Assembly: GCA_017302835.1 (NCBI GenBank)
Contig: JAFLCC010000010.1
Coordinates: 1-64,000 of the forward strand
Length of the DNA: 64,000 bases
From: Deltaproteobacteria bacterium
GTDB lineage: Bacteria > Bdellovibrionota > Bdellovibrionia > Bdellovibrionales > Bdellovibrionaceae
Direction of reading: 5' to 3'
Shown here: piece by piece, positions 52,409 to 54,852 of the stretch
Layout: each line of letters opens with the position of its first letter
Numbering within the stretch: position 1 is the first letter of the stretch
Program-made: the position numbers and the translations under genes
Notes under the pieces: model-generated
Database searches by the model: none
Told to the model about the DNA's origin: nothing
What the model saw: only the letters and a program-made list of their open reading frames with translations

Positions 52409-53353
52409 ATGGAAAATTTAAAAATTTTTTCAGGTAACGCAAATGTAGAGCTTGCAACCAAAGTCGCCCAAGCCGCTGGAGTTAAACTGGGACATTCCGC
52501 TGTCACCTCTTTTGCCGATGGTGAAATTCAAGTCGAAATTCATGAAAGTGTTCGTGGAAATCATGTTTTTGTTATTCAAAGCACTTGCCCCCCGGTAAAT
52601 CAAAATTATATGGAATTATTTATAATGTTGGATGCCTTGAAACGAGCCTCGGCAAGTCATATCACTGCAGTTATCCCTTATTATGGCTATGCCAGACAGG
52701 ATAGAAAAGTAGCCCCCAGAGCACCTATTTCTGCAAAGTGTGTGGCTGATTTGCTAACCACAGCCGGTGCCGATAGAGTTGTGTGTGTGGATCTTCACGC
52801 CGCTCAAATTCAAGGGTTTTTCAATGTCCCTGTGGATCACTTGTTTGCTATCCCCACCCTCGCAAGAACCTTCAGAGAAAAATATGGTTACGGTACGGAT
52901 TACGTTGTTGTCAGCCCAGATGCTGGGGGAGTCGAAAGAGCTAGAGCCTTTGCTAAACGGATAGAATCTACGATGGCTATTATTGACAAACGCAGAACGG
53001 GCCCCAACGAAGCCAAAGCTCTTCATCTGATTGGGGATGTAAAAGGAAAAGTGGCCATCATTGTGGACGACATGATCGACACCGCAGGAACCCTTTCTCA
53101 AGCAGTTGACTCCTTGCTAAAACATGGGGCGAGAAAAGTGCTTGCGGTTTCCACTCACCCCGTACTTTCTGGCCCTGCTATCCGACGTCTCAAAGAAAGT
53201 GTCATTGAAAAGCTCATAGTTACTGATTCGATCCCGCTTTCACAGGAAGCTATTAATTCTGGTAAAATTGAAGTCGTTTCTGTTGCTCCTGTTTTAGCAG
53301 AGGCTATCAAACGTATTTGCAGCAATGACTCGGTAAGTTCTTTATTCGAATAA
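52409..53353 (+). CDS. prs: ribose-phosphate pyrophosphokinase
   Basis: This 314-residue enzyme makes PRPP from ribose-5-phosphate and ATP for nucleotide, His and Trp synthesis. The motifs are F-S-G-N-A-N, F-A-D-G-E-I-Q-V-E-I, Y-Y-G-Y-A-R-Q-D-R-K, V-S-P-D-A-G-G-V-E-R-A and the PRPP loop V-D-D-M-I-D-T-A-G-T-L. It is full length. A GGTAA-type site precedes the ATG. The 3' flank carries the hairpin array before rplY. Confidence 0.96.
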   Translation: MENLKIFSGNANVELATKVAQAAGVKLGHSAVTSFADGEIQVEIHESVRGNHVFVIQSTCPPVNQNYMELFIMLDALKRASASHITAVIPYYGYARQDRKVAPRAPISAKCVADLLTTAGADRVVCVDLHAAQIQGFFNVPVDHLFAIPTLARTFREKYGYGTDYVVVSPDAGGVERARAFAKRIESTMAIIDKRRTGPNEAKALHLIGDVKGKVAIIVDDMIDTAGTLSQAVDSLLKHGARKVLAVSTHPVLSGPAIRRLKESVIEKLIVTDSIPLSQEAINSGKIEVVSVAPVLAEAIKRICSNDSVSSLFE

Positions 53354-53401
53354 TTTATTCCTTGATTCTCTTTGTCATCTAGAATAGAAATTTCCTTCTG
53401 T

Positions 53402-53520
53402 AGAGCGAAAAGCTCTGTGACTAAACTAGGACCGAAGGCCCTGTAACTAAACTAGGGCCGAAGGCCCTGCAACTAACTTGGGCCGTATAGGCCCTGTAAC
53501 TAACCAGAGCTGAAAGCTCT
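53402..53520 (+). repeat. array of five stem-loops with exact 26-bp period
   Basis: Five small hairpins begin at 53402, 53428, 53454, 53480 and 53506, exactly 26 bases apart. Stems: AGAGC/GCTCT, AGGAC/GCCCT (one mismatch), AGGGC/GCCCT, GGGCC/GGCCC, AGAGC/GCTCT. Loops: GAAAA, CGAAG, CGAAG, GTATA, TGAAA. The spacer is close to G-TAACTAACT. Stem changes compensate, so RNA pairing seems kept. An AT-rich 10-bp palindrome (53524-53546) follows, then the rplY ribosome-binding site. Confidence 0.85.
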
Positions 53521-53563
53521 GACACTTTTAAAATTGTTTTAAAAGTACTTGAAAGAGGATGAT

Positions 53564-54286
53564 ATGAAACAAAAGTTTGACCTAGCCGTTGAAGCCAGAG
53601 CTGTTGGAAAAAGCACTTGCCGAGCACTTCGTAACGAAAGAAAAATCCCTGCTAATATTTATGGTGCTATTAAAAACCAAAATATTTACTTAAATGAAAG
53701 CGATGTCTTAAAATACAATACAAGAAAATTTGATAATACCTTATTTACTCTGAAAAGCTCTTTGCCTGAAGCCAATGGAAAAATAGCTCTTATTAAATCT
53801 GTTGATGTAAATCCATTATCTAGAAAGCCTGTTCATGTTGATTTATATGCTTTAGATTTAACTAAAGCAGTAAGAGTTTCTGTGGAAATTAAAGTTGAAG
53901 GTAAACCTCTGGGGCTAGCTGATGGAGGATTATTGAACATCGTACAAAGAGAACTTGAAATTGAAGTCCTTCCTAATGATATCCCAGAAAGTATCATTAT
54001 AGATGTTTCGCATCTAGGTGTTGGCGATTCATTCCACGTATCGGAGCTCAAACTTGCGCCGGGTGTGAAGGTACTCTCAGCGCCTGAGCTGACAATTGCC
54101 GTTGTTAACCTCATTGAAGATGAAGTTGTCACTCCAGCAGCAGTTGCTGCCACGGCGACTGCTGCAACGGCGACTGCTGCCACTGCAGCCGCTCCTGCGA
54201 AAGATGCCAAAACACCAGCGGCCAAAGCTCCAGCAAAAGATGCTAAGGCTCCTGCTGCCAAACCCGCCGGAGATAAGAAGAAATAA
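53564..54286 (+). CDS. rplY: 50S ribosomal protein bL25 (CTC form)
   Basis: This ~240-residue protein binds 5S rRNA. The N-terminal L25 domain (R-A-V-G-K-S-T-C-R-A-L-R-N-E-R-K-I-P-A) is followed by the CTC/TL5 C-terminal beta domain (H-V-D-L-Y-A-L-D; V-L-P-N-D-I-P-E-S-I) to ~190. A low-complexity Ala/Lys/Pro tail (~50 residues) ends it. I start at the ATG 53564 after AGAGGA. It lies directly after the hairpin array and 2 bases before pth. Confidence 0.93.
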   Translation: MKQKFDLAVEARAVGKSTCRALRNERKIPANIYGAIKNQNIYLNESDVLKYNTRKFDNTLFTLKSSLPEANGKIALIKSVDVNPLSRKPVHVDLYALDLTKAVRVSVEIKVEGKPLGLADGGLLNIVQRELEIEVLPNDIPESIIIDVSHLGVGDSFHVSELKLAPGVKVLSAPELTIAVVNLIEDEVVTPAAVAATATAATATAATAAAPAKDAKTPAAKAPAKDAKAPAAKPAGDKKK

Positions 54287-54288
54287 AA

Positions 54289-54852
54289 ATGTGGCTTATT
54301 GTAGGACTGGGTAATCCTGGATCTGATTATCAACTCACCCGCCATAATATTGGATTTATGGCGGTTGATTTTTTTTTAGGGGATAAAAAAAATTCACTTG
54401 AGAAAAAAGAATTTAAGTCTTTTTTATATAAGACAAAAAGTCAAAATACAGACTTATTGTTTTTAAAACCCCAAACATTTATGAACTTGTCTGGAAATGC
54501 CGTTTTGGAAATCACTCAATTTTACAAAATCCCTCTGGCTCAAATCGTTGTAATACATGATGAAATTGATCAAGAATTTGGGAAAATCAAAATTCAAAAA
54601 AATCGTGGCCATGGAGGACATAACGGCATCAGGGATATCTCCGCAAAATTGGGTTCAAGTGATTACCTCAGAGTCCGCCTTGGTGTCGGACGACCGCCAC
54701 ATCCTAATATGGATGTAGCTGACTATGTTTTACAAAAGTTCAGTAAAGAAGAATTTGCTGAACTTCCAAACTTTCTTGAAAAAAGTGTTCGTGCTATTGA
54801 AAGTTTAATTTTAGATGGATTTCAAATAGCTGCTACAAAATTTAATCAATAA
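54289..54852 (+). CDS. pth: peptidyl-tRNA hydrolase
   Basis: This 187-residue enzyme releases peptides from stalled peptidyl-tRNA. The motifs are G-L-G-N-P-G, the catalytic His in T-R-H-N-I-G-F, F-M-N-L-S-G, V-I-H-D-E-I-D and G-H-G-G-H-N-G-I-R. The order rplY-pth-ychF is widely conserved. Confidence 0.96.
   Translation: MWLIVGLGNPGSDYQLTRHNIGFMAVDFFLGDKKNSLEKKEFKSFLYKTKSQNTDLLFLKPQTFMNLSGNAVLEITQFYKIPLAQIVVIHDEIDQEFGKIKIQKNRGHGGHNGIRDISAKLGSSDYLRVRLGVGRPPHPNMDVADYVLQKFSKEEFAELPNFLEKSVRAIESLILDGFQIAATKFNQ

Follow-up and report, generated by a model that had tools for sequence, protein, structure and literature searches.

A tandem array of palindromic units upstream of rplY in a member of the Bdellovibrionaceae

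In E. coli, the mRNA of ribosomal protein bL25 is repressed by its own product, by way of a conserved irregular hairpin and a weak GAGA Shine-Dalgarno (SD) sequence, and in the parts of the review drawn on here the known operator features are described only for species with a short bL25 and are absent with a long bL25 (PMC10931766). Hairpins before or between genes are also described, in excerpts of two further studies, as determinants of mRNA decay. Examples are papBA, where the 5′ end left by RNase E cutting is structured, and malE, with a 3′ block (PMC5927463), as well as the multiple hairpins of puf that set the decay of operon segments; the second study also mentions an RppH-like enzyme in Bdellovibrio bacteriovorus (PMC7509114). 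Here we describe five diverged tandem copies of a palindromic unit of ∼26 bp that fill positions 53402–53520 in the gap between prs and rplY (the window is the whole 64,000-nucleotide stretch of DNA that was analysed). Our literature search found nothing recognisable as such a hairpin array before rplY.

The array and its neighbourhood

The units are found on the plus strand at 53402–53416 (unit 1, AGAGCGAAAAGCTCT; five Watson-Crick pairs and a G.A), 53428–53442 (unit 2, AGGACCGAAGGCCCT; five pairs and one A.C mismatch), 53454–53468 (unit 3, AGGGCCGAAGGCCCT; six pairs), 53479–53495 (unit 4, TGGGCCGTATAGGCCCT; five pairs, a T.T at the foot and two extra loop bases), and 53506–53520 (unit 5, AGAGCTGAAAGCTCT; six pairs). 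Spacers of 10–11 bases of the type GTAACTAAACT join them. Tandem Repeats Finder reported a repeat at 53415–53503 with a period of 26, 3.4 copies, and a score of 125. An earlier note on this DNA had placed five stem-loops at exact 26-bp spacing before rplY, in an array extending from 53402 to 53546. The five tandem palindromic units were borne out by the sequence of 53402–53520, by Tandem Repeats Finder, and by the comparison of the predicted fold with shuffles. The exact spacing was overstated: in homologous register the units start at 53402, 53428, 53454, 53479, and 53506, giving steps of 26, 26, 25, and 27, and a constant period is obtained only if unit 4 is taken to start at GGGCC, position 53480. 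The array extent holds for 53402–53520 but not for 53524–53546, which is a separate AU-only hairpin common to the congeners and no sixth unit.

The genes around the array all lie on the plus strand. They are prs for ribose-phosphate pyrophosphokinase (52409–53353), rplY for bL25 (53564–54286), and pth for peptidyl-tRNA hydrolase (54289–54852), which begins two bases past rplY. The bL25 encoded in the window contains both PF01386 and PF14693 and is therefore a long two-domain protein rather than the short one-domain form. Near the end of rplY, a 15-base tandem repeat (54145–54183) encodes a part of the C-terminal bL25 tail that is rich in Ala and Thr. Upstream of the array is a weak predicted promoter-like pair, TTGATT-N17-TAGAAA (53362–53390, plus strand), which has 8/12 in the window and lies below the threshold of our promoter scan. 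The pattern TTGnnn-N17-TAnnnn is present upstream of rplY in all six congeneric species, with a poorer second box in the congeners, and was written after viewing them. From the end of this pair to the start codon there are 173 bases here and 63–87 in the five congeners, which places the additional sequence after the likely promoter and before the conserved core. The core, AAAGTACTTGAAAGAGGATGAT (53543–53563), includes the SD stretch GAGGA and is invariant in the six congeneric species; the foot of the AU-only hairpin (ACTTT/AAAGT) is likewise kept in 6/6, followed by the core up to the start codon. The array adjoins the upstream side of this conserved hairpin/SD region. In one congener (G001, locus L017) an unrelated 7-bp hairpin, CCTTTGA/TCAAAGG, occupies the corresponding place.

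If the promoter-like pair is real, the array would stand at the extreme 5′ end of the rplY message. A pattern scan of the intergenic plus strand for a GC-rich stem with a T-run found no terminator-like site, so that read-through from prs is possible; on the minus strand, unit 3 is terminator-like in the same scan. The genome encodes an RNase E/G homologue, and a search of it for RNase J gave one match, far under the cut-off.

The five units can be written as a stem of six pairs, in which 27 of the 30 arm cells are Watson-Crick. Two-sided changes occur at two positions. At pair 3, units 2–4 have G-C and the outer units 1 and 5 have A-T. At pair 6, units 2–4 have C-G and unit 5 has T-A, with a G.A mismatch for unit 1. 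The other unpaired cells are pair 1 of unit 4 (T.T) and pair 4 of unit 2 (A.C). The earlier note had described stems switching with compensating changes among three arm types. Of these, GGGCC/GGCCC amounts to the AGGGCC/GGCCCT stem bearing an outer T.T mismatch. Compensation is thus real at pairs 3 and 6 but was overstated, being limited to these two pair positions with 27/30 cells paired. Because units 1 and 5 are alike at pair 3, the covariation may represent one or two events. When the 3′ arms were re-dealt among the units, 12 of 120 arrangements scored as high as the actual one, since arms are interchangeable within the classes {1,5} and {2,3,4}. Among units 1–4 the arms differ by 25% and the spacers by 21%, and the arms are no better conserved. 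The kept pairing does not separate selection from correction within hairpins or exchange between copies.

The RNA of 53350–53580 has a predicted energy of −70.4 kcal/mol, compared with −47.2 (sd 4.2) in 200 shuffles, none of which was as good (z −5.5). The predicted minimum-energy fold is not five separate hairpins. For a transcript starting at 53397, the predicted probabilities of the local stems are 0.98 for unit 4, 0.89 for unit 5, and about 0.41 for unit 1, while units 2 and 3 (0.00 and 0.01) are predicted to pair with each other. The array alone reaches −50.4 kcal/mol as a rod in which units 1 and 5 form the clamp, compared with −43.9 for local hairpins only, and in growing transcripts from 53397 the rod is predicted to be preferred from 53524 to 53550. 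The region from the SD to the start (53552–53566) has a mean unpaired probability of 0.74 with the array and 0.70 without it; with shuffled arrays the value is 0.62 (sd 0.13), and 11% of 200 reach or exceed the openness seen with the real array. For a read-through transcript that starts at 53300, the means with and without the array are 0.32 and 0.31. These near-equal values indicate that the array neither clearly hides nor clearly frees the start region. On the minus strand, the A.C of unit 2 (53428–53442) becomes a G.U pair, and the unit folds with −6.8 instead of −2.3 kcal/mol.

Distribution of the array

We scanned for hairpins that follow one another at near-constant spacing, allowing each stem one mismatch. 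The array was the sole match in 738,890 bases of the same genome (window included), and there was no such chain in the nearest congener (G003; 108,581 bases) or in control sequence generated from the own-genome set by a first-order Markov model. With zero mismatches the scan loses unit 2 and misses the array itself, so the relaxed setting was picked with the array already known.

The earlier note had proposed a count of copies in this genome and a covariance-model search of relatives, and had considered a repeat-type mobile sequence. A covariance model of the unit (R1) matched four of the five units in the own genome, among 150 of 444 first-look candidates scored; unit 4 was absent, and R1 can thus miss diverged units. 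Outside the array and among the same scored candidates there was nothing below E 0.08, the best value of ten weak lone matches (L048–L057). BLAST of the own genome found the array only, with no dispersed copies, and a 13-base pattern had one lone match (G000:C4, L058). The copy count is hence one array with no second copy among the candidates scored. Of 65 other genomes of the family, six had weak R1 matches at E 0.05, in seven places (L061–L067; best E 0.004), none of which holds an array, with at most 114 first-look candidates scored per genome. In the order, 0 of 139 other genomes matched at E 0.002 with stricter filters among the candidates scored (53 of 440 for G000). The covariance-model search was thus carried out on the own genome, the family, and the order, and revealed no array elsewhere among the candidates scored.

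The array is also absent from the 150–330 bases read upstream of 37 other rplY loci (29 + 8), among which L024 is partly masked and the stretch of L112 stops short of prs. All five congeners have rplY and none has the array before it; at the congener rplY loci (L015–L019, L005, L006) R1 gave no match at E 1. One alignment (A2) sets the array against unrelated sequence, and only its right-hand end was used. Three phage records and one plasmid record matched 21–29 bases (query 128–165) around the AU-only hairpin only. Eleven stretches of viral contigs contain a 17-position search pattern, with at most one R1 match each, the best a lone one with E 3e-4 (L126). Rfam gave nothing above the gathering score in the window except a tRNA. 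The mobile-sequence proposal found no support, as neither BLAST, R1, nor the 13-base pattern detected dispersed copies among the candidates scored. With no second copy found in the genome or the order, and none in five congeners, the array appears to be local and lineage-specific and not of the REP type, and we infer a local amplification of the unit within this lineage.

rplY leaders in sister genera

In a sister genus (g3), rplY was found in 13 of the 14 genomes searched. Six of its leaders contain RAC-(A/G)AUGG-CCUC ... GAGG-AAGUA-GUY, which folds beside the SD with an internal loop of AAUGG or GAUGG opposite AAGUA (L035:1427-1503 and L039:1425-1503, and, on the minus strand, L108:2179-2255, L109:2191-2266, L112:2224-2299, and L115:2212-2287). 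The 5S rRNA of the window's own genome contains CGAUGGUA ... AAGAGUAG at the place that we take to be loop E, the bL25 site. The structured leader is likely a mimic of 5S rRNA loop E, and so likely a bL25 operator, in species with a long bL25. Among the six leaders, 5 of 16 pairs have changed on both sides, and the covariation score is 0.287, compared with 0.162 (sd 0.035) in shuffles (0/500 as high), for a structure derived from the same alignment that was scored. Further pair types are not above chance (9 vs. 8.5 in shuffles; 250/500). Unpaired cells number 8 of 96, and L039 deviates most.

A strict scan for the loop E module, composed after the leaders had been viewed, matched 7 of 38 leaders, compared with 0.0002 expected per leader from 2 matches in the own-genome set (1,477,780 bases over both strands). 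The seven are five of the six g3 leaders (L039 was missed) and two of genus g5, L021 and L022. In the g5 leaders the strand order is swapped: AUAGG-AAGUA-GCC-GGA-GGU-AAUGG-CCUAU (L022:1474-1502 and the same place in L021) has the AAGUA strand first, encloses the SD in its apical part, and runs into the rplY start codon. A symmetric variant, identified by eye before rplY in L038 (1419-1458; the same contig as L008, from Bdellovibrio sp. qaytius) and at the same place in L111, reads CCAC-CGAUGAGUA-AGAC/GUCU-GAUGAGUAA-GUGG. Two facing GAUGAGUA or AAUGAGUA strands lie between its CCAC/GUGG and AGAC/GUCU stems, and in L111 the latter, again by eye, is AGGC/GCCU. A model built from the six g3 leaders (R2) recovered these six among 66 genomes at E 0.01 and no leader beyond its source genomes. 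Rfam had nothing above the gathering score at L112, L035, L038, L022, or L111, and our literature search, with most subscription journals outside it, returned no paper on such rplY leaders in this family. If the loop E mimics are true, they would extend bL25 autoregulation beyond bacteria with a short bL25, which is directly testable. In a further genus (g6; L031, L034, L041, L042), the last ∼60 bases before rplY contain TATTATTAAC in all four leaders and a stretch of type TCCTCTATTGGACTAGAAGGA that could mask the SD, preceded in three of the four by a short hairpin of varying sequence.

The strict scan had no match in the last 130 leader bases of the window, and both halves of the loop E module, AGTA and ATG, are missing from 53402–53520. 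The core of the window can be written as AAGUA-CUU-GAAA-GAG-GAUGA, a possible reduced loop E hairpin holding the SD. This version is invariant in the six species, lacks an outer stem, and fails the strict scan. One could imagine that bL25 control in this family works through a fast-turning rplY leader, with loop E mimics beside or around the SD in sister genera and the reduced one (AAGUA-CUU-GAAA-GAG-GAUGA) in the core of the window's genus. In this species alone, a newly grown spring of tandem hairpins, switching between separate hairpins and the rod with units 1 and 5 as clamp, would then set the folding of the core and with it bL25 feedback; we give this idea little credence.

Possible roles and known systems

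Protection of the mRNA is the best functional reading among those that the earlier note had put forward. We tentatively propose, with a probability of roughly 0.4, that the array is a structured intercistronic or 5′-leader element, likely slowing mRNA decay. It would be transcribed in sense, either as the rplY leader from the weak promoter-like pair ending at 53390 or within a prs-rplY read-through message. The RNA would fold into a stable structure that either forms the 5′ end of the rplY-pth segment or follows prs as a 3′ block, and the SD region would stay about as open as without the array. After a putative RNase E cut in the AU-rich stretch upstream, the hairpins might stabilise the downstream piece in a papBA-like manner. 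Such a role is consistent with the fold (z −5.5), with 27/30 paired cells despite a 25% arm difference (units 1–4), and with the position of stable predicted hairpins between or ahead of co-directional genes, as for intercistronic stabilising stem-loops. The lack of a terminator-like plus-strand site in the gap, the place of the additional sequence after the promoter-like pair, the unrelated hairpin at this place in G001, and the RNase E/G homologue agree with it too. Points that count against it are that the array is known from one species, that its arms have no extra conservation compared with the spacers, that the openness of the start region is not beyond chance (11% of 200 shuffled arrays), that the covariation perhaps reflects one or two events and 12 of 120 re-dealt arrangements pair equally well, and that the promoter-like pair is weak.

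Nearly as likely as slower decay is neutral local tandem duplication, in which a chance palindrome was amplified by slippage, and hairpin-templated correction and exchange keep the copies palindromic without any function. The presence in a single species among the candidates scored, the equal divergence of arms and spacers, and the two interchangeable arm classes, as expected from exchange between copies, all agree with this explanation. Yet 27/30 arm cells still pair, the fold is far more stable than shuffles (z −5.5), and the absence of a further chain in 738,890 bases suggests that such arrays seldom arise in this genome. Alternatively, the RNA might have two states, a rod (units 1 and 5 as clamp, 2 paired with 3) and separate hairpins, and a switch between them would alter rplY expression. 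The arm classes {1,5} and {2,3,4}, the better energy of the rod for the array alone (−50.4 vs. −43.9), and the growing transcripts that favour the rod from 53524 to 53550 point in this direction, but units 4 and 5 are local in the longer leader (0.98, 0.89), the array barely alters the openness of the start region, and there is no known ligand or trigger, which makes a switch improbable.

Action through the other strand or at the DNA level, as an antisense RNA or as operator dyads for a DNA-binding protein, appears slightly less probable still. The G.U pair of unit 2 on the minus strand (−6.8 vs. −2.3 kcal/mol) and the terminator-like minus strand of unit 3 speak for it, but all surrounding genes tested are on the plus strand and the asymmetry hangs on one site; as for dyads, 26 bp is ∼2.5 helical turns and would place them on alternate sides of the helix. 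Autoregulation as suggested in the earlier note, with repeated binding of bL25 to the hairpins and repression of rplY, is disfavoured and in our view very unlikely. The array stands before rplY, and E. coli bL25 represses its own mRNA in the portion of the review consulted (PMC10931766), but an array-borne operator would have to be reconciled with 0/5 congeners carrying the array, where conservation among relatives would be expected of an operator of the E. coli type, with the missing AGTA and ATG halves, and with the long two-domain bL25; moreover, the leaders in the family that resemble a bL25 site are built otherwise. The least probable explanation, to which we attach hardly any weight, is a mobile or REP-like dispersed repeat. 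The units are palindromic and intergenic, and unit 1 is preceded by GTAG, a sequence typical of the foot of REP hairpins. But no dispersed copies were found in the genome among the candidates scored, the weak matches elsewhere are not arrays, and the phage and plasmid records match around the AU-only hairpin only.

If functional, the array is an RNA structure that arose in the leader of a ribosomal protein gene when a unit was amplified locally in tandem, and it is known in a single species. Tandem hairpins with covarying stems can be lineage-specific, and covariation among copies alone is thus no proof of long-term selection.

Among known systems, REP elements are likewise short intergenic palindromes, but they have many dispersed copies, and none were found for the units by BLAST or by R1 among 150 of 444 candidates scored. 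The TAACTGA repeats of Beggiatoaceae are tandem and lie upstream of genes including ribosomal protein genes, and the array spacer contains TAACTAA. As far as the sections consulted describe them, they consist of the 7-mer alone, at 169 loci of one genome, and six TAACTGA copies are predicted to form only one pair, in contrast to the 26-bp palindromic units at one locus here (PMC4679880). We rejected a TAACTGA-type repeat, suggested by the spacer, because the two differ in kind. The E. coli operator shares with the array its place in the rplY leader and is, in the sections drawn on, one conserved irregular hairpin with a short bL25, whereas here a species-specific array occurs with a long bL25 (PMC10931766). 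Compared with the decay stem-loops of malE-malF, puf, and papBA, as portrayed in the excerpts used, the array differs in that one short unit is repeated five times in tandem, in one species and at one locus; it resembles them in its stable predicted hairpins between co-directional genes and in the RNase E homologue of its genome.
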